A stretch of 64,000 nt of DNA from Aquilaria yunnanensis (Eukaryota > Streptophyta > Magnoliopsida > Malvales > Thymelaeaceae), in contig CM077594.1 of NCBI GenBank assembly GCA_039654915.1, positions 91,836,893 through 91,900,892 on the forward strand, in the 5' to 3' direction. How positions within the stretch are numbered: the stretch's first letter is position 1; each line of letters starts with the position of its first letter. The notes under the pieces were generated by a model. The model did not search any database. It had not been told where the DNA came from and saw only the letters and a program-made list of their open reading frames with translations. Position numbers and translations under genes: made by a program. Positions 22,887 through 58,838 of this stretch are shown here, one piece after another.

Positions 22887-25800
22887 TCAATTCCAGCCAT
22901 CTGAAAACTCAGCTTCGTCTACTGGCTGAGGCATTTCAGTACCAACAGAGTCTTGCACCCATTCTTCAACTCTAGTCGATTGAGACAGATTGTCTTCATG
23001 CACTGGAACTTCAACATACTCCTCCCTTTCTGGAAGCGCACATCCCATATAGCTGTTGTTATCTTTGCTATGCCATATAAGCTTACTCCAGTACATATCC
23101 TGCCATTCAGTAAATCATTGGAATAAGTTGAGCCAATGGGCTAGGGAAACAGGTGGAAGGTGCGCCAAGAGCAATAATACTATGAATAGAAAAGATCATA
23201 CATCCCCAGAAACTATTCATTCAACAGTTATAGAACCTATCCTTTGTGTTTTCTTCACATGTACCGGCTACTTTTTATCTTCTTAAAACCACGTAAGAGC
23301 CATGTAATTTAATGTGGGTTACCATCTATATTTTTCCCATGGTAAGCTGTTGAATATGAGGCCGAAGACTGAAATAAATGAACAAGTTCAAAGATCAGGG
23401 TGCTTCAAGAGTTATGTTATATATGCACCCAATGCAAGGTTTAATTCTGCTGTCAGAATACAAGTTGAAGTCCTTGGATGACCTTTACTACTTTTAACTC
23501 ATTTCCATGTTCCCATCACATTATTCCTCCATTTCAATGTATTAGAGATCTTTTTCCTTTCAAAATCACGCACATGCCTTAACCTACTTACCTGAAATCT
23601 AAAAAGGGCATAATGTTGGGAGGGCTGCTTTCAGTTCAGAAGGCAGCATCTAAAGTAGTTGTAAATTAAAGAAATGAATTTGAATAAGTTTCCAACTCAT
23701 CCTCGATGTACCTCCACAAATGCAAAAGAGAGAATGCAAGTTTGAAGTTTAACGGTATTGCTGAGAGCCAGGATGTACCAAAACATTGCATTCATCATAT
23801 GGATCAAAACTGACAAGTGCCAAACAAGCATTAGGCAGGAGTCTGGGATCGATATAAGCTTATTTCAGATCATAGCTCTGGATCAACATTCACTTGAAAA
23901 AAAATCCAAGCACAGCTCAAGTAGAAAAGCAATACCTTTGCAATTATGTGGGGATTTCCAACTATTAAAAGCAAGGATATTGCACGGGTAATGGCCACAT
24001 TAAATCTTTTCGGGTTACTCAAGAATCCCAAACAGTGGGCTCTGTCGAAGTCGTTGTGTTTGATAGTTGACCGGACAGTAGATATGATAATAACTTTTCT
24101 TTCCTGTCCCTGAAATTGCTCAACACTACCTACCTTTATGTCAGGCATTTCAAGATTCTCAAGAGTTTTTTTCAGCTTGAGTACTTGCTGCCTGTAGGGG
24201 GTTATAACCCCAATATCTTCCTCACTAAGAGACCCACTGCAAATCAAACTCCTTATAAACTCAGCTACCTTGCTGACTTCAATACGGTTGAACCATGATG
24301 GATTGTTTCCTTCCCGCTCATCACAACCTTGAATGCCAAAAAAGAAAACAGGGAAGTCCTTGTTGGGAAGGAACTTTAACGACTTCAAAAGTGAATCTGT
24401 GTCATCTTTGCAGGAGATCAATTCACCATTGTAGAAAAGCGTTGAAGGAAGATGCAGAATCTCTGGGTGGCATCTGTAGTTCCTGACCAGTTTTGTCACA
24501 TAATTTTCATCCCCGGCTGAATAGTATCCAAATTCACAGAGCCTCTCTAAGTACGATTTTCCCAGTCCATAAGACGCCGCATCTCGGGAGTATACTATTG
24601 GACCTAATTGCATTGGGTCTCCAGCAAGCACTACAACAGTATCCGAGGAGCAGAAGTTGGCTATAGGGATCATGCTTTCTGGCTCCGAAGCTTGACCAGC
24701 CTCATCCAAAAATATATGAGAGAAATGGCCTCGCTGAACTCCTTCAGTGTAAAGAAGAGAGGCACTCATATAAGTTGAAATGATGATTCTGTAGCGGCCC
24801 AAAGCACTGAATGGTGGACATTTGAAGACTTGCTCATCAAAGAAGCAGAAGTGGATATGATCAGGTTTAACATCATCATATGGACGTGTTGCAGCATTTA
24901 GCCTGAACACTTCATGTTCTTTAAGTTGAAGATCTTTTTCACTCAGGAGCTTCTCAAGTATATGATCTGCTGCACTATTTGAAGGCGCACACACAAGTAT
25001 ACGAGCAAGTTCTTTAGTTGAGCAGAGTTGGAGCACTGCTTCAACTAGAGTCATGGTCTTACCTGTACCAGGTGGCCCATAAATAACATAAGGTGGTCCT
25101 CCATTGCATCCAAGAATCATCTCGATTGCACACATTTGTTCTTCATTAAGTGTACATGTTTTTGGCACAAGTGGAGTTGTTTCAATCAACCTATATCCAG
25201 AACATTCAGATGGCAAAAGGAGTTCTAAATCCAAGTTCTCAGCAGCATCAATTGCTTGGTACAACCTTCTCATGTTGATTCTATTATATGTAAATTGGAC
25301 ATCGTAAAAGTTGTCATCTCTGTGGTGTGTGTGAAATTCTGGTGCAAATTTCAAGCACACGTCATCAGATTCTACTCGGTGTATATAACCCTGCAGGCAT
25401 ATTAGATTTGGTGAAAAAGCCAGACACATATAATAGCATGACTCTTAGCCAAAGGGAAAAATGTAGGGAACAGATAAATTTGCACTGAGTGGTGGACAAT
25501 TGTTGGGTGAGTGAAGGTATCTAGCAGTACTAGCACAGGAACAAGCAGATACCAGACGGTGAGTTATACAAGAAGCATTGCCTATGTGTTATTTAAAATT
25601 TAGAAATATTTATATTACCAATCCTTTAAAAGGTAAAGAATATCATTCAAAAGAAGTGGAACTAGAATAACACGCAAACAATTATTTACTCTTATACCAA
25701 ACAATGATTTACCCTCTATGTGGCTATGGATTTCAGTAAATTTCAACAGTAAACAGAAGGCCTGACATCAATTCAAAGACAATGTCAACTTCGCCATGGC

Positions 25801-27164
25801 TAAATTGTCCTGAACATACAGCATATTCATTTCATTATTCTCTCAGCAAAAGTACTAAAAATGAGTGAGAAGTTACTAAAGAGGTAATGGAATATTTAGG
25901 AACAAGTCATAATGCAAACAGTATAACACAATCAGGTCGCCTCCCAGGGAATGACATGGCAAAATATTCTGAGTGTGATTTAGAAAGACAATCATGATAT
26001 CTAACACCATGCAACTCAAATTCTGGGAAATTCTCCACTCTAGTTCTACCAGAGTTCTGCTAAAATGAAATACTTTTGACTAAAGAATCAAACGTCTGGA
26101 ACATGGAACAACCTGAAAAGGCGAACTCATTTCTGCATCATGAGAAGCAAGCTTAGCAAAAATGAAATCCCCATGGACAAGAGAAGGTCTCCTCTCAGCA
26201 AGCCCAGGGACTTTAAGAGACAAAAAACCTCCACTCCTCCTCATGTTCACGTTCTCCATGTCATAAGCCCTCATGTCTTCCTGGAAAAAAAAAAAAAGGA
26301 GAGAACAAAAAGGAATCAATCCAACTTACAGGAAGACTGAAACATTAAACATTTTATGTGATCTCCTAATCCAGGCTTTTGAGTTACCTCGACTTGAATC
26401 TCCTCCAACATCACCAAGGCCTTGAAATAAGATGAATAATTATCACACGTCAGTCCTTCAAAAATAGCATCAGGAATCCGCTTACTCTTAATTTGCTCTT
26501 TAACATCTTTTGGAATGTCATAGCGAGGAAGCCTTTTCTTCGAGTGCCGATCCATGGCCCTTCCTGGACGTGATCCCTTAACATATAATTCTGCAGAGAA
26601 GTGTGTCGTGCTCTTGCCCCGTGCATATGGTCTCGTGGAAGACAATGACTGTGATATCTTATCCTCAGCCAGGAGGAAAACCACTCTCTCTATTTGATCA
26701 GTACCAACATCAACATGCACAACTGAAGTGTGCAAGCCAATATCTTTGGGCTTGCAAGAGAGCCAAATTGTTAATGTCTCCCCAGGCTGGATCATCCTAT
26801 CCTCCAACTTAGTACTTTCAACAAAACCTCGGCCATCTGAGTTTCCAGCAGAATCTGCTGTAGGAGGCTTCATCAAAGAGAGCTTGAAAGAATCCTCAGG
26901 CGTTGAAGCATAGATTTTAGTCCATATCTCCATGGCTTCATCTGTTGTATTCTTTATAGTGATTGGGTCCACCGCAATGTCTCCAACGAAGACAGACTGA
27001 GGCTTCCCATTGAAGGGGAATGGCACAGAGATGATCAGAGGACCCTCTTCAACTGGATTGTAACTACACACAGATTTATCATCCTCATAGTCTATAAACC
27101 CAATTTCTCCCTTGTCCCCAATGACTGAAAATTCATCACCCCAATTATCACCAGCAGTACTCAT
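22887..27164 (-). CDS. SDE3: SDE3-type RNA helicase (MOV10 family), 870 aa
   Basis: Four exons on the minus strand: 27164-26388, 26280-26113, 25390-23936 and 23099-22887. All introns are phase 0 and GT-AG. SDE3 is a superfamily 1 RNA helicase that works with Argonaute proteins and RDR6 in amplifying RNA silencing and in antiviral defence. The N-terminus ([17 protein letters not shown]) matches SDE3 orthologues, which supports this start. Helicase motifs are Walker A GPPGTGKT (residues 420-427), motif II DEAGQ (544-548), GDPMQLGP (572-579), the [11 protein letters not shown] segment and NVAITRA. Arabidopsis SDE3 is longer (about 1000 aa) because of a C-terminal extension with Gly-Trp repeats that binds AGO. 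Here the tail is short and ends SDGWN with one GW. Intron 3 is 836 bp. Confidence 0.95.
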
Positions 27165-27617
27165 TGCTGAACAAACAATGCCAGTCCCGAGTATCCAATC
27201 AAGACCTCAGAAGTTCACCCTAGATGGATAAATTAAATCAAGTAAACCACAGACAAGGACATCCACGCTCTTCCTTTCGGGAAGGGAGGATTAAGAACCC
27301 AAAAAGTAAATGTATGAAAACAGGCAGATAATGGAACATTCATATGAAGCAAGATGAAAGATGAACGAAAACACGGAAACGCGAGGTTAAAAAAGAAAAA
27401 CAACCAACTTCAGCAGAAAGTTGAAGGCCCAACAGAGCGGCGACCGGAAGTGGGGACAAAAAAAGAGTAAAGTTAATCTCTCGTCATCATTGTGTACCTG
27501 AGTTTCGAGAGCAAAGAAGACAAGCGACTGGCAGACTGGCACAACTTCCCTCACCCAAAGCAAAAGAGTGCGGTGACGATAAATGGCACCAATGTCCCAA
27601 ACCCTCAATTTCCGTTA

Positions 27618-35408: not shown

Positions 35409-38400
35409 TCAGAACAATCGGGCCAATTCCAGAATGGATGATAGAGGCATGGGCCCCGCCTCGGTCTTCTCTTCGTTGTCTCTCCTCTGCCTTCCCCTGG
35501 ACTCGGCCGACGACACGATGTATGACTCTTTAGCGTTGTTGAATATCTGATCCACCAGCTTCGCCTGCACCCCGAAAGCCAACTCCTTCGCCTCGCTGTC
35601 CATTTCCCTCATCAAGTTCTCCCGCCCTTCATTGCGTCGACCGACCAAAACCAGCCCAGTCAGATAGACTAACAGAAGCGTATTTACGATCGAGATCAGG
35701 TTCACGTAGAGTTTAAGACTTTACCTGCGAGGAAGATACGCTCGTTGTTCCTGGCGTTGATTCCGAACCCAACTGTTGTCAGATTCTGGTTCCCAGTGGC
35801 CACCATTGTGAATGGATGACTTACCGGAATTACGAAGATGTCACCAGCGGAAATTCGGGCACTCAACCTTTGGATTTCTCCACTTCTCTCCTCCTCCTCC
35901 TCCTCCTCCTCTTCTTCTTCTCTTCTCCCTTCCTCTCCTCCATATTCTTCTCTTCGTCTCCCTCTGGATTCAGTTTCCATCCCCCGTCTGGAAAGATGTG
36001 GGCAAACTATCTCGACAAGCCCCTCCCCATTCGCCACGTAAACGACGGTTGTCTTTCTCGAGTTGTAGTGCGGAGCAAACATGGCGTCCTGTTTAAGATC
36101 GGCGATCCCGACGGAGACCTCAATGTCTTCCAGTTGCCCGAATTCATCGGGCGTGGCTTCAAAGAAGCGGCCATTTTGGTTGGAGTAGACTGGTTTCTGG
36201 TTCATCAGGTCGATCGGGCTTCTCATGTCCCGGCCTTTCGACTTGGGCGAGGAAGCGTTGCGGCTCATCGCCTGAAGCTGCTGTTGACTCGCTCTCCGGA
36301 ATATACCCTGCTGCTGCCTCTCTTGCCCCTGGAACAGCCTCTCTAGTTCTTCCCTTGGTGTCTGAAACAGGAACCAATATCATAATCAGATACCAACTTT
36401 CTGAAAATTCGTTAGCTGCAACAACGGGAGAACCATACATTTAGGGCTTGCTCCAGGATTTCAGTGCTGAAGGCTCTGTAATAAGGTTGGGGACTTTCAC
36501 CTCCAGCAGGGTACAAATCCTGCGACATTGGCAATAATAATAATAATAAAGGAAGTAATAAGCACAAGAGCATTGAGGGTTGAAAATAAGAGTTGAAAAT
36601 AAGCTAATTACAAATCAACCAGACTCTTTTACTTTAAAGCTTCTACCTGAAACCGGCCAGGAATATTTACTGGGTTAACAAAAATGGCGACGTTTAGCTC
36701 CTCATTGCTCTCATGGTTGATCAGGTACAGGGTGTTTCCAGAAGGAACTCTAATCACATTTCCTTGTTGAATATTGTATGACTCTTTCCTTTCGTGATTA
36801 ACGAAAGTAATCGTCCCCCTTCCTGTCGTAAACATGGCAAGGTAATTAGTCTATCAGCCATGATTCAAAGTTACTTAAGCTCTTAATTTCAAATGAAGCT
36901 CACCCCTTGTTACTACACAAATCGAATCAGAATCGGAGTGGTGGGGAAGAACGAAGGTGTTGGGACTGACTACCAGCTCGGCAAACCGGAAGTTCTTTAT
37001 GCCGCGGAGGAGGCGAGACCTGGAAGTGAACTTAGGAAGAACCCTGAGACTGCCCTGTGACGACCGGAACCGCTCCTGGAACCGCTGCGAGTGGAAGTAG
37101 TAGGGGTTGTTACTTTGTTCTTGCTCTTCCCCGGCTCCACCAACTTCTTCCTCCCTTCTTCCCCTGCCTTGTTCTTGTTCTTCTCTGTATTGCCTGTCGC
37201 ATCTTCTCTGGCATGGGCCTCGCTGCCGTTGGGAGGTTTGTCGGCACCGTTGCTTGCATTCCTCGTATTCTTGCGCCGGCTCTTGCTCACCTGGTCGATG
37301 AAGGCAGGAATGTAGAAAAGATTTAAGTACTTCCTCAGATTTGGATGGCTTGGTTCCTTTTCAAGGATCAATCAGACAAGAGATCCTTCTAAAAAAGATG
37401 TTATACTGAATTGCTACCTCTGTGTCGCCTGCCTTCGCTTTCTTGCCGTTCTCGTTCATAGTCTTCTTGACACCTTCTCTGGCACTGTTGTTGCTCCTGC
37501 CCACGCGCTTGTTCTTGGCATTGGCGTTGGCACTCCTCGTATCGTTGTCTAGCAGGGTCTTCATCGCCTAATCAAGGAATGCGTTTAGGGAACGAACTCA
37601 ATATTCTCAATTAATTGGCTAATATGGTGGTGTTACTATTTATTTATGTGGCGACTGGCTAGCTGCCTAGCTAGCGGTTACCTCTTCCTCGTCTGCTCTC
37701 GCTTTCTTCTCTTTCTCGCTCATATTCCTCTTGACACCTTTTTTGGCATTGTTGCTGTGAGCTACCTTCCTGCCTCCGGCATTGCTCCTGGCACTCTTCG
37801 TAACGACATCTAGGATCTTTCTCGCTATCGTCACCTAGTTTAATGGAGAAAATATATTAGTATATCTTATTCGTTGAGGCTTCCAAAGCGTAATTTTGGT
37901 TGGAGACTTGGTATTAACTATAAGCTCACCTCCGCCTCGTCGGTGCTCTCTTTCTTGCCGTTGTTCTTCTTCCTGATATTCCTCCCGACACCTTCTCTGG
38001 CATTCTTCCTGTTGCCGTCCCCTCTCTTGCCTCTCGCAGCTTTGCGAGCACTCCTCGAAGCGACGGCGAGGATCTTGCTTCTGGTTAATTTTGTTCCCTA
38101 CCTCTTCGCTTCGTCGCCCCTCTCGGCCTCTAGACTGTTCCCTGCACTGTTGCTCGCACTGCTGCCGCTCCCTCTGGCTGCGGGTTTCCCACGAGCACCT
38201 CCTCTCGCACTCCTCCCGTCTCTGCGGCTCCCGACCGCTCTCGCCTTCTCGCTTTCGTTCTCTCTCCTCGCAGAACCGCTGGCACTCTTCCGGTCGCCCT
38301 AGCTGCATCTCCTCGCACTGCCAGACACACTGCTCATACCTTTGGCGTTGGTTCTCCTGGTTGGTGAGCTCAGTTTTCAGGACGGAAACATCGTTGGCCA

Positions 38401-38473
38401 AACAAAGGAGCGCAGAGGAAAGAACGAGAGCAGAGAGGCAGAGAAACAAAGGGGAATATTTAGAGATCAACAT
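35409..38473 (-). CDS. 7S vicilin-like seed storage protein with six N-terminal cysteine-pair modules (MiAMP2 type), 781 aa
   Basis: Eight exons on the minus strand: 38473-37930, 37834-37682, 37567-37418, 37290-36904, 36822-36647, 36519-36439, 36361-35725 and 35626-35409. Residues 1-26 are a signal peptide. Six modules of the form CxxxC-x(9-12)-CxxxC follow: three in exon 1 (Cys49/53/64/68; 89/93/106/110; 142/146/158/162), one each in exons 2 and 3, and one at the start of exon 4. Such modules are released as antimicrobial hairpin peptides from Macadamia MiAMP2. Two cupin domains follow: the first in exons 4-6 (from NPYYFHSQRF), the second in exons 7-8 (from SPIDLMNQKPVYSNQNGRFF), with an acidic loop containing 11 Glu. 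The protein is a trimeric globulin of seed storage vacuoles. The last acceptor (35627) has a weak pyrimidine tract but restores the conserved AGRENL. Confidence 0.93.
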
Positions 38474-38519
38474 TGCTGAGTTTTGGTGAATGATTTTCTT
38501 GCAAAATGGGGCCTGTGAA

Positions 38520-38682
38520 ATTTATAGAGGGGTGCAGAGGATACTGTAGCATGCAGAAATCTCATACGTGTTGGAGGGCTTAACATGCAAGGTGACGAGT
38601 GTTGGTCCGATGGAAAAACTAAGAGAGGAGGAATTGTTTTGGTTTGTCGCAACAAAACCCAGGCGCCACCTCTGGTCACGTG
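38520..38682 (-). promoter_or_regulatory. Seed-type promoter of the vicilin gene
   Basis: TATAAAT on the minus strand at 38526-38520, 47 bp before the ATG. CATGCA (RY-type seed motif) occurs at 38550-38555 and 38584-38589. ACGTGT (ABRE-like) lies at 38566-38571 and a CACGTG G-box at 38677-38682. RY plus G-box/ABRE is the known arrangement for ABI3/FUS3/LEC2 and bZIP control of storage-protein genes, so embryo-specific expression is inferred. Confidence 0.7.
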
Positions 38683-50254: not shown

Positions 50255-53200
50255 TCAGAAAAAGCTTAGCTCAGTATATCCATGTGAATATGGCCAAAGC
50301 TCCTCCACCTCAACCCTTGAACTAGAGTAACTCATACTTCTCTTCAATCGGTTCTGACTTGACACAACCTCGGCATAGAACATACCATAAACTGGTCTAT
50401 GATCTGAGAATCTGGATTCTCCACGGACATAAGATAACTGATGGAGGCCTTCTCCATGCCACAGTATTCGGTCACACCTTCATAAAAGCATAAGCATTAC
50501 GTCAGTATAACTGTCTTTAAAACTTGATGGCATCAACTTGCATGGGAGCAAACTGGATTTTTTCTACGTTCTTGATTCCAAAATCTTTCCTTTTCCACTG
50601 TTCTATCCTGAGTAAATCGTGCACTTACTGAATGATCCTAGTTCTTACCAGGCAGGAGTTCGTCGTTTCTCTTTCGGATGCATATCATCTCCTGCATACC
50701 TGTCTGAATTAGTTGAATACTTGTATGTTGGTGGGAAATATATTTTTCCTTCATTCCACCCGACAAAAACACGTCCCCGGTTCTGCTCTATCCGTAGCTG
50801 TTACAGTAACCATCACTTTAGTTGCTTGAAAGATTTCTTTCAAAAGCTCAAAAAATTGAAGATACAGATGCCAAACTGGCAAGTATTTCTGTGGACTTTA
50901 GGTTTAGGATAAAAAAAATTACCTGATCATTCTCTAACAATGCCCTCCAGTTCTGCATTTCAACTAGTGCCTTGGCTGAGCGATATGAAAGTGCAATACG
51001 ATAATTTAAATCCCCGAGCCAAATTACACGACTGGATTGAGAGGGGAAAAAAACATAAAAGGATTAGATTTTCAAACTAAATTGAATCTCTGAACAAAAA
51101 ATGTCCATTCTACATTCATGATGGTCCAATCCATTTTATTGAAAACATTATCTGCTAACATTTTAATTGAGAGCTTTGAGAACAAGAAGCTCACAAAGAA
51201 AAAAATGTCTAAAGTTATTGAATCATTTTATATTCACATTAAGTATCTAACATTTCAGTTCTTTACTTGTCAAGTATAACAGCTGAATCTATAGAGAAGA
51301 AAGATCTGAAATAGTCTTACTCGTGCTCAAGGATTGTTTCAGGGGACTTCTCATTAACTGCACTGTTAACTGGAGGAAACCTCGTTTTTCTTAAAATTTG
51401 CATGACATCAGAGTTCCTTCTTAGCTCATCACCCTCCTTCTGGCCAGAGGTAAGGTGAGTACATACAAAGCAAAAGCTTGTGTCATGTACTAGCATGCTA
51501 ATAGAGATAGATCCCTGCATCCAAGGAATATGGTCATCTCAAAAATTGGTCTAACTATTAAAGGAAATCTAATGCATGAAGAAAAAAAAAAACAAAAAGC
51601 TAAGTGATAGCTGAAAACCTTGTTTCCGAGGTAACCCATCAATCCTCTGCCAACACATGACACTTTCATGTTTTTAACATGATCTCGCAACTCACTCCTC
51701 ACCCAGACTGTTAGAAATATGCCAACCATTTGTTTGCTGGCCACCAAACAGTACCTTGACTGCCCTTGCATCCTATACCCTTGGTCATATGCAGGTCCAT
51801 GGTACGACATTGGGGAGTGTAATACAGTGCTTGGAGACTCCCCAGTTCCATTATCATCGTCAGATGAACCCCATCTTGAAAAGTCACTTGGCCTGGAATA
51901 GTCACTCGGCCTGGAATAATCACTTGGCCTGGTGTAGTCACTTGGCCTGGTGTAGTCACTTGGTCTGTTGTAATCGCTTGGCCTGGTGTAGTCACTTGGC
52001 CTGGCGTAGTCACTTGTTCTGTTGTAATCGCTTGGCCTGGTGTAGTCACTTGGCCTGGCGTAGTCACTTGGTCTGTTGTAATCGCTTGGCCTGGTGTAGT
52101 CACTTGGTCGGTTGTAATCGCTTGGCCTGGTGTAGTCACTTGGCCTGGTGTAGTCACTTGTTCTGGTATAATCACTTGGCCTAGCATAATCACTTGTCCT
52201 GCTACAGTCACTAGGCCGATGTGCCCATCTGTAACTGGAATCAAAGTCACTTGCCCTGTGGCCAAACATAACCCGATCACAGACACTAAATCGCCGATCA
52301 AGTCTTGGCTGTGAAGCATATGGATCACTGTCCATTCTCGAGCTACTTGTAGTCTGGAATGACCTGCGGTGGAAGAAAGAAGAGTTTTTCTGCCTAAAAG
52401 ACCCCTCAAAGTCCGCATTCATCTCGGCTACAGGCCTTGGGACAGGAGACGGTGTGTAGCATCTACCTCCTCCACTTGTTCCTGGGAGACTGTTCAGAGA
52501 CTTTCGAATTAAGGCAGTCCATTTCTTGGCAGGGCCATTGTCTTCTGCACCCAGAACATTTCCAGCATTCAAAGGAACAATCTCCTGAAAACTACAGAAA
52601 TGGAGATTTTTTTTCTTTTTTAGGAATGATTTGCTACAGACACTATCAAATTTCTAACAGAAGAGGCTCCAGAACATACCCCAGGACATATATATCTGCA
52701 GGAGGAGCAGCATGAAGCCAATCGTCAATACTCAAGTTACTTGGCGGTGATCTACCAGCCACATTCCATGTGGCAACAAAAACACTGCTCCATACAGCAA
52801 CAAAAAAAAAAAAGCAGTTGGTCCCAGTTCGTAATCAGGCCAAAGAAACATGCTTGCATATATCAAAATAATGACCATAAATAAAGTCAAACCTATAGTT
52901 CTGAACCTCTATGATTCGAGGATCATCGAGATTCATCCTCCGCCGCCTGCCAGGTGGCTCACTGCTCTTGCTAAACTTCTCTGCAGAAAGGGAAGTGGGG
53001 AAGTTAACAATTGTGGAGAGTTTAACCCAACTCGCAGAGAAGAAATACTTGTCTCTTATGAATGAACCTCTTCTACTCTTTTTAATCGTGCAAGGCTCTC
53101 TCTCAGGGAAGCTCGTCCTGTACTCTACCTCGGCTCCTATATTTGAGTTTAACACAAAAAGAACCAAAACCAAGTTAACATTAAACGAAGTACAGTTATT

Positions 53201-53693
53201 AACAATGAAGCAAAAGAAAAGCTTCTCGTTGGGTTATCAACAGAAGAGGCTCCAGACATAGTTTGTGAAAGGAGGGAAGACTCAAGTATTGGGCACAAAA
53301 CTGAGGAAAACAGGATTCAGCTATTTAGCATTGCTTTGCACTGTTACTGGACATAGTTTTCTGTGTATAAGGTTCCAACCTGGTTCAAATTGGGTGGTGG
53401 GGAGGACAAAACAAACAGCAAAGAAGTAAAGTTGTAAGCCTCGAGAAAAGACGAGATTACGGACCTCCATAAACATGATGATCTGCCTGAAAGTCCTCAT
53501 TCTTGCTTTTGATATTGAACAGCTTCCTCACCATCTTTTTAGACCATGACAACTTCACCACAACAAGAAAAGGAAATTAGTGAAGGCCACCCAGAATTTT
53601 GCGTCTCGATGGATTTGCCGACGTTCAAAAAGGAGAAGAGAAAGTAGGAGAAAAAACAAAAACCTTTGTTTTCTTGGAGTTCCCATCTGTCAT
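50255..53693 (-). CDS. Type I inositol polyphosphate 5-phosphatase (IP5P1/IP5P2 type), 675 aa, with hexapeptide repeat
   Basis: Ten exons on the minus strand: 53693-53664, 53552-53465, 53136-53068, 52980-52893, 52784-52680, 52591-51619, 51514-51321, 51031-50923, 50797-50649 and 50477-50255, all GT-AG with agreeing phases. The enzyme removes the 5-phosphate from inositol phosphates or phosphoinositides such as Ins(1,4,5)P3, dampening Ca2+/ABA and auxin-vein signalling. Conserved segments, in order, are [39 protein letters not shown], the Mg2+/catalytic WLGDLNYR (about 520-527), PAWCDR (about 600-605) and SDHRPVYG. The N-terminus ([16 protein letters not shown]) matches Arabidopsis IP5P1/IP5P2. 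Residues 251-364, in the variable insert between the two catalytic halves, are 19 units of xRPSDY. The family normally has only a short Ser/Arg-rich segment there. Confidence 0.93.
51880..52221 (-). repeat. 18-bp coding minisatellite, 19 units (xR[P/T]SDY)
   Basis: Exactly 342 bp = 19 x 18 bp, in frame in exon 6 of the 5-phosphatase. The units vary at the first position (H, S, A, T, N) and at Pro/Thr. The first ends in Cys and the last in Phe; all others read SDY. Pairs such as [12 protein letters not shown] recur as 36-bp higher-order units. Confidence 0.95.
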
Positions 53694-57960: not shown

Positions 57961-58160
57961 TTTGGAAATCAAATGTATTAATCTAGAAATCCACTGTACT
58001 ATTATATATATTCATTGTATTAAACTAGAATTCAATGTATTACCCTTAAAATCTAATGTATCATTCTGGAAATCCAAAGTATCATTCTATACGTTTCTTG
58101 TATTAAACTGAAAATCCAATGTATTATTCTATACATTCGTTGTATTAAACTATTCAACCA
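57960..58160. repeat. Imperfect tandem repeats of about 40 bp
   Basis: Units around AATCCAATGTATTATTCTATA and CATTCGTTGTATTAAACT recur about five times with substitutions. They may be the subterminal repeats of an undefined transposon that also contains the 130-bp duplication at 58579. Confidence 0.65.
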
Positions 58161-58578
58161 TCTGATACATACCATAATCAGACCCAAAAACCCCAACAAT
58201 ATATTCCAAATGTATCAAACTGCACCACAAGCGTATCATTCTGAAAAATATTGGATTGCCACTTTGTTCCCATTTAAATCGATATATCCAACACTCAGAT
58301 CAATAAATTTTATGCTCATATCCATACATACTTCATATATTATAGAATCGAACCGAAACAACACACACACACATAGAGCAATACAAACTGAACCCAGTTG
58401 TATTGCAAATCAATACAAAAAAAGGCATAATCAAATTGAAAAACACAAATTGAACACACTCACACTACACCAATTTTGGTTTCATATGCAAATTGACGAA
58501 CCCATTGATTTTTACCAACGAAAAGCATAAATCGTGAATCACGAATAGTGAATCCCCCTTGCGGCGAACTACCCACCG

Positions 58579-58838
58579 GAGCACATGCGTCTTCCCTTGT
58601 TCCCTTTTGAATGCAGGCCATCGTTGCGTCTCTTGCAACGCCATTTGAGATCCACAACGGCCTCCCCAACAATGACGTAACAATTAAATAGTAGAAACCC
58701 AGCAGCAGGAGCACATGTGTCTTCCCTTGTTCCCCTTTGAATGCAGGCCATCGTTGCGTCTCTTACAACGCCATCTGAGATCCACAACGGCCTCCCCAAC
58801 AATGACGTAACGATCAGATAGTAGAAACCCAGCAGCAG
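58579..58838. repeat. Two-copy tandem duplication, 130-bp unit
   Basis: Unit 1 (58579-58708) and unit 2 (58709-58838) both begin GAGCACATG.GTCTTCCC and end CCCAGCAGCAG, with only a few differences (such as ATGCG/ATGTG and TTGCAA/TTACAA). They are GC-richer than the surroundings. No recognisable coding. Confidence 0.93.

Follow-up and report, generated by a model that had tools for sequence, protein, structure and literature searches.

A 19-unit hexapeptide array in the linker of a predicted CVP2/CVL1-type 5-phosphatase of Aquilaria yunnanensis and its likely origin from an RPSDY seed common to many angiosperm relatives

The window, a stretch of 64,000 nucleotides from Aquilaria yunnanensis, carries on its minus strand a gene whose product we assign to the CVP2/CVL1-type inositol polyphosphate 5-phosphatases, and the linker of this predicted protein of 675 amino acids contains a long tandem array of a hexapeptide. 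Comparison with homologous proteins argues firmly that an expandable RPSDY seed, common to many angiosperm relatives, has been strongly expanded in this array. Since many relatives repeat a near-identical core with other spacings and in fewer copies, the array is best regarded as a long example of a trait widespread in flowering plants rather than as a one-off. Such recurrent growth of nearly the same peptide, with different periods and at one place in one enzyme, is a natural experiment on slippage versus protein-sequence selection.

The gene and its hexapeptide array

The gene at 50255..53693 (minus strand) is intact and consists of ten exons with an open reading frame of 675 codons from ATG to stop; each of its nine introns begins with GT and ends with AG. 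The exons, the array and the two elements next to it are the following:

53664..53693, minus: exon 1 with the start codon (gene model)
53465..53552, minus: exon 2 (gene model)
53068..53136, minus: exon 3 (10-exon model)
52893..52980, minus: exon 4, after the 87-nt intron 52981-53067 (10-exon model)
52680..52784, minus: exon 5 (gene model)
51619..52591, minus: exon 6, 973 nt, running from FQEIVPL to GNK and including the entire linker with the array (AG/GT splice sites)
52243..52260, minus: HRASDF, candidate ancestral seed unit, beginning 13 residues ahead of the array (comparison with relatives by eye)
51880..52221, minus: 19-unit array, residues 251-364 (TRF, codon reading and gene model)
51847..51879, minus: conserved exit flank of the array, 11 residues (sequence and comparison with relatives)
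51321..51514, minus: exon 7 (gene model)
50923..51031, minus: exon 8, carrying the catalytic motif WLGDLNYR (gene model)
50649..50797, minus: exon 9 (gene model)
50255..50477, minus: exon 10, completing PAWCDRILW, with the stop codon (gene model)

The domain PF22669 was matched in two stretches with 248.5 bits against a cut-off of 27 (704-aa model, see below). GDxNxR is the second catalytic motif of inositol polyphosphate 5-phosphatases and is present in the translation within WLGDLNYR. The stretch PAWCDRILW agrees with the 5-phosphatase motif P(A/S)W(C/T)DR(I/V)L given in the accessible part of PMC7781601, so that both catalytic motifs of a 5-phosphatase are found. Nine introns were counted in 27 of 75 plant 5PTase genes (PMC6562803, accessible part); the number in the window gene is the usual one for plant 5PTases, which fits the family and is not diagnostic of the CVP2/CVL1 subfamily. 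A nine-exon model of 704 amino acids was rejected: its exon 3 held an in-frame 87-nt GT..AG intron encoding 29 residues without a counterpart in the family consensus, and the protein lacking these residues fits the consensus better. The domain match, the homologue searches, the OCRL alignment, the unit comparison and the tree used the 704-aa model including the 87-nt intron; the array counts are independent of the choice between the 704-aa and the 675-aa model, and the tree retained 500 of 817 columns.

The initial annotation had described a 19-unit in-frame hexapeptide repeat at 51880..52221 in exon 6, and both its extent and its exon were borne out. Codon-by-codon reading places 19 in-frame units of 18 bp, xR[P/T]SD[Y/F/C], at exactly 52221..51880 of the minus strand, within exon 6 of the 10-exon model, and TRF reports an 18-bp array at 51882-52217 with 18.7 copies, a score of 399 and 0% indels, the copy number being that of a single assembly. 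With 114 of 245 residues the array accounts for 47% of the linker; its share of the whole protein is 17%. The proposal that it lies between the two catalytic halves holds as far as the linker is located there; the array itself, however, does not split the domain, since it fills only this part of the linker and one-unit relatives also have a linker at the same place. Arg, Ser and Asp are unvaried in 19 of 19 units, position 3 is Pro in 16 and Thr in 3 units, and position 6 is Tyr in 17, Phe in one and Cys in one. The spacer residue is Thr in 8, Asn in 4, Ser in 3, Ala in 3 and His in one unit, in line with the earlier statement that variation is focused on one position (T/N/A/S). At the level of DNA, 13 of the 19 units are distinct. 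The array contains 19 Arg, 19 Asp and 18 aromatic residues; when the upstream unit and the spacer are included, R+K, D+E and aromatics amount to 21 each, resulting in a net charge of zero.

Comparing unit with unit, the five core codons gave a pN of 0.040 and a pS of 0.771, and the spacer codon a pN of 0.455 and a pS of 0.252; these pairwise counts are not independent because the units descend from one another. With each distinct core variant counted once, 7 variants were synonymous and 3 non-synonymous, although 78% were expected to be non-synonymous when transitions are weighted twofold (binomial P=0.0018). Of the non-synonymous core variants, Y to C and Y to F belong to the two end units of the array (first and last); the third, P to T, is shared by three units. 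Synonymous variation in the core next to so few non-synonymous variants means that the RPSDY peptide was retained though mutation reached its codons, which suggests that selection acts on the core peptide. The identity between units peaks at a lag of three units (mean 0.851, with 3 of 16 exact), indicating that 54-bp blocks were duplicated in the past.

At 51678-52418 long open frames also cross the array, both on the plus strand and in another frame of the minus strand. A function of the array in the other strand or in other frames was considered and rejected, as open frames across both strands are a mechanical by-product of a stop-free 18-bp period.

The array in relatives, its periods and its history

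Homologues were collected by three protein searches at E 0.001 or better, taking the best 120 each of 3468, 157 and 4349 matches; one of these searches scored only the 7992 candidates with most words in common. From the matches listed, 162 different proteins were pooled, of which 158 were parsed and 4 dropped; in the parsing of an earlier set of 146 proteins, 12 had been dropped because anchors were missing. As the array was part of two of the three queries, the sample leans to array-bearing relatives. The searches rule out that the array is an oddity of this window alone: 126 of the 158 parsed relatives carry three to twelve units, 10 carry two, 21 a single one, and one lacks the unit altogether. 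The window counts 20 units by the same regular expression (the 19 plus the upstream HRASDF), compared to a maximum of 12 in the relatives, and its 19 tandem RxSD[Y/F] units between the anchors SVCD and QMVG place it in the RPSDY-array group. The initial annotation had allowed that orthologues might all carry the same array, making it a family trait; this is true in so far as at least three units are present in 126 of 158 relatives, but unit number and period vary by clade.

The assumption that Arabidopsis homologues have no such array is contradicted by P0020 from Arabidopsis suecica, which has six regular-expression units at the same place with a period of 6-7, the first being the seed. Growth from a short RxSD-type ancestral seed, which had been proposed as well, gains support from one-unit relatives such as P0109 (Vitis vinifera), reading HRPSDFDPNFRWGSSDDEN at the place of the array; by eye, HRASDF of the window occupies the place of the sole unit in these relatives. 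P0113, the CVP2 of A. lyrata, has one unit, as does P0147, its sister. The magnoliids, the orchid and the Proteales sampled, together with Nelumbo, also have one, of the form RPSD(F/Y/C)(D/E): Magnolia, Cinnamomum, Aristolochia, Tasmannia, Dendrobium, Nelumbo, Protea and Macadamia. Craigia, which among the matches listed is nearest by the catalytic part (88% over 405-704 of the 704-aa model), has one unit, and Cochlearia, Craigia and Linum tenue have only 1-2 each. Paralogues can differ strongly, with 9 versus 1 units in Cornus and 8 versus 0 in Apium; a four-row group of the tree (86) with 5-phosphatase-4-like and related paralogues from Cornus, Apium, Vitis vinifera and Shorea has one unit or none. 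The annotated proteins P0067 (Punica) and P0058 (Cajanus) show 41-42 residues between the anchors, P0067 without the SSDDD flank, which reflects either real loss or wrong gene models.

The closest known systems are Arabidopsis CVL1 (At5PTase7) and CVP2 (At5PTase6) of type IV, which share domain, linker and seed position with the window protein, whereas the latter is set apart by its 19 units, its uniform period of 6 and its mostly T/N/S/A spacers; this comparison is based on the rows of A. lyrata and A. suecica, not A. thaliana. The 5-phosphatase 7-like arrays of asterids, Caryophyllales and Papaver (mostly 9, 5 and 8 aa) have the same place and the same or nearly the same core, while spacer length and composition differ and the rows tabulated contain 5-12 units. 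Period 6 is found in legumes, Citrullus, Oxalis and the window and a period of 6-7 in Brassicaceae, so that most array-bearing rosids have 6. Most asterids have period 9, Papaver has 8, Caryophyllales including Ancistrocladus and Dionaea have 5, and Crassulaceae (Rhodiola and one Kalanchoe) have 13; the clades are those to which we presume the species to belong from their names. Mixed periods occur in Hibiscus (13/6/5), Lithospermum and Bertholletia (5/9) and Actinidia (13/9). Across all period classes the core is RPSDY or nearly so, the array consensus of Amaranthus and Dionaea being RASDY, not RPSDY.

A tree was calculated from 74 rows, namely the window protein and 73 hand-picked named proteins of the 162, with the linker excluded. 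Period classes require 14 changes on this tree, compared to a mean of 40.9 and a minimum of 35 in 200 shuffles, with three mixed 6/7 Brassicaceae rows assigned to period 6 by hand; the number drops to 11 when four other mixed or long rows are left out. Array versus none requires 9 changes. Because the tree is quick, midpoint-rooted and weak at many forks, with 21 of its 71 inner branches drawn open, all change counts are approximate. In it the window protein groups with CVP2 and CVL1 of Brassicaceae (clade of 25 rows, 91; 22-row subclade, 95, asterisked), apparently near Punica (93) and Malvaceae, and P0020 pairs with the Raphanus protein P0066, named 'CVP2 like 1' (97, asterisked). Since CVP2 and CVL1 split inside the Brassicaceae group, the window gene appears to be co-orthologous to both.

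Because the regular expression behind the unit counts presupposes RxSD, they are to this extent circular, and a motif-blind repeat search was included for this reason. It detected arrays in 43 of 74 linkers, 10 of which were not scorable, and in 23 of the 33 scored arrays conservation was higher in the core than outside it. Nine of the ten exceptions have three units, and seven of these nine (six legumes and Linum) show reduced conservation of the core owing to RASDY in the middle unit. The motif-blind periods were 12 (two units) for the window and Citrullus, 7 for Spinacia and 5 for Lactuca. The simplest history that we infer would start from one ancestral seed, pass through a 13-residue duplication, a state seen in Vitis rotundifolia and Dillenia, and continue with repeated growth at differing periods. 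Among the open papers listed no description of such arrays in plant 5PTases was found, the titles and abstract starts of At5PTase7 papers mention no repeat, and RPSDY turned up only with a Drosophila peptide and with a peptide vaccine (IL17A). As far as open papers are concerned, the recurrent and largely clade-specific expansion of RPSDY is apparently undescribed.

Position in the fold and possible roles

The array is located in the linker ahead of the YCLVASKQM strand. OCRL, INPP5B and synaptojanin-1, animal enzymes with solved structures, match the window protein across the catalytic domain; OCRL, however, has no long linker at the place of the array, approximately 25 of its residues facing approximately 268 of the plant protein (query 163-431 versus OCRL chain 68-93, 704-aa model). 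An AlphaFold2 model of P0001 from a 49-sequence alignment reached a mean pLDDT of 33, and of this low-confidence model only the order of strands and helices was used, and only where it matches the Synj1 alignment: helix 146-161, coil 162-341, strand 342-350 and strand 353-360. In synaptojanin-1 the loop 641-654, which joins strands 4 and 5, lies on the far side from the active site (PMC7781601, accessible part), and it aligns with 14 residues of the window protein, provided that residue 528 is the first of the 346-residue chain. A tight hairpin seems to be formed by strands 3 and 4; this would bring the start of strand 3 beside the equivalent of loop 641-654, and the linker, ending at the start of strand 3, should face away from the active site. 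Its composition points to a disordered linker.

As the best explanation we tentatively propose that the array is a disordered arm for multivalent docking or self-association, the valency of which is altered by slippage. The disordered linker would project from the face opposite the active site, and each unit would act as one weak sticker with one Arg, one acid, usually one Tyr and a net charge of zero. Such stickers could support multivalent self-association or docking to a partner, and the arm might set the clustering of the enzyme at, or its retention on, membrane domains where PI(4,5)P2 is removed, with catalysis untouched. Slippage of 18-, 36- or 54-bp blocks would change the valency, and phosphorylation of the RPS serines may act as a switch. 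The equal numbers of Arg and Asp, the 18 aromatics and the absence of net charge favour weak multivalent contacts over electrostatic lipid binding. Citrullus and Papaver likewise show 10/10/10 for R+K/D+E/aromatics, but the 1:1:1 ratio is not general (Cinchona 16/12/14, Lonicera 17/13/15). Further points against the proposal are the low unit numbers of A. lyrata CVP2, Cochlearia, Craigia and Linum tenue, the RASDY consensus of Amaranthus and Dionaea, and the ten scored arrays whose core is no better conserved; the open papers searched yielded no report on binding, condensation, localisation or phosphorylation of the array. The FUS family comprises Arg/Tyr sticker proteins with regular spacing of Arg and Tyr and polar spacers, and the array resembles them in this respect; in contrast to these proteins it lies inside an enzyme loop and every Arg is balanced by Asp, and the likeness is one of composition.

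According to the accessible part of PMC5665488, CVP2 is polar at the plasma membrane and CVP2/CVL1 are tied to PI(4,5)P2. We consider it conceivable, with some reserve, that the RPSDY seed is a valency dial, which eudicot lineages independently expand with different periods and whose unit number tunes clustering or partner binding. With the same reserve, this species might represent the highest setting among the 158 parsed relatives and may still vary between individuals. If so, unit number would act on an enzyme by which PI(4,5)P2 is set in vascular cells. Array length lends itself to a direct test of its role, given the distinct vascular phenotypes of the Arabidopsis cvp2 cvl1 mutants (PMC5665488, accessible part).

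Somewhat doubtful, though it accounts for several observations, is near-neutral growth of a minisatellite in a tolerant disordered loop, by which a slippage-prone seed gains and loses units at random and young, homogenised copies mimic conservation of the core. It would agree with the spread from 0 to 12 copies among the 158 parsed relatives, with few-unit members inside array-bearing clades, e.g., Cochlearia, and with the three-unit register that reflects 54-bp block duplication (0.851, 3/16 exact). Moreover, CVP2-CITRINE alone rescues cvp2 cvl1 roots according to the accessible part of PMC5665488, and as CVP2 has one unit, judged from A. lyrata, the long array seems not to be needed for root function in Arabidopsis. 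Against near-neutral growth, the same codons diverged at synonymous positions (pS 0.77) while the core did not at non-synonymous ones (pN 0.04), and nearly the same pentapeptide was kept under different periods in different clades.

That the array serves as a phosphorylation array, in which a basophilic kinase acts on the RPS serines and the multisite change of charge regulates the enzyme or recruits a phospho-reader, we regard as unlikely. Every one of the 19 units has the Ser, each time with Arg at -2, but a basophilic site has no need of a conserved Tyr and Asp. Reports of phosphosites in the array were not found in the open papers searched. Trypsin cuts Arg-Pro bonds poorly, and as Arg directly precedes Pro in 16 of 19 units, standard tryptic proteomics is nearly blind to the array, so that missing phosphosite data are weak evidence. 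Canonical 14-3-3 sites, RSxpSxP or RxxxpSxP, require Pro at +2 of the phospho-Ser; since no Ser of any unit has Pro at this position, the suggestion of a 14-3-3 array is not supported.

It is very unlikely that the array is real but its unit number wrong, due to a collapsed or expanded repeat in the assembly. There is one assembly, short-read assemblies are prone to errors in repeats of this type, and no parsed relative of 158 has more than 12 units; however, the variety of the units in DNA (13/19 distinct), the intact frame and a length of 342 bp, well within the reach of long reads, argue against an error. A phospholipid-binding array that directly holds the membrane, as raised initially, is highly improbable: although CVP2/CVL1 act on a membrane lipid (PMC5665488, accessible part) and the array offers 19 Arg, it lacks the net positive charge of a basic phospholipid-binding repeat (R+K 21 versus D+E 21), Asp equals Arg one for one with a net charge of 0 here and between -1 and +4 in the remaining rows listed, phosphorylation would add acidity, and the point of attachment is probably opposite the active site.

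Other features of the window

Matches to Cupin_1 (35705-36379) and Vicilin_N (37838-38521) lie in neighbouring open frames at 35705-38521 on the minus strand, which probably represent a vicilin-type seed storage gene or its remnant. Also on the minus strand, matches to AAA_11/AAA_12 and the MOV-10 beta-barrel at 23873-25444 and a weak, sub-cut-off match to the Mov-10 helical domain at 26319-27206 suggest a MOV10/SDE3-like RNA helicase gene at 23873-27206. Two further tandem repeats are present in the window: a 130-bp unit in two tandem copies with 94% matches at 58578-58838, and a degenerate nested repeat of 21/42/83 bp at 57965-58527, which overlaps an open frame of 157 amino acids without a Pfam match.
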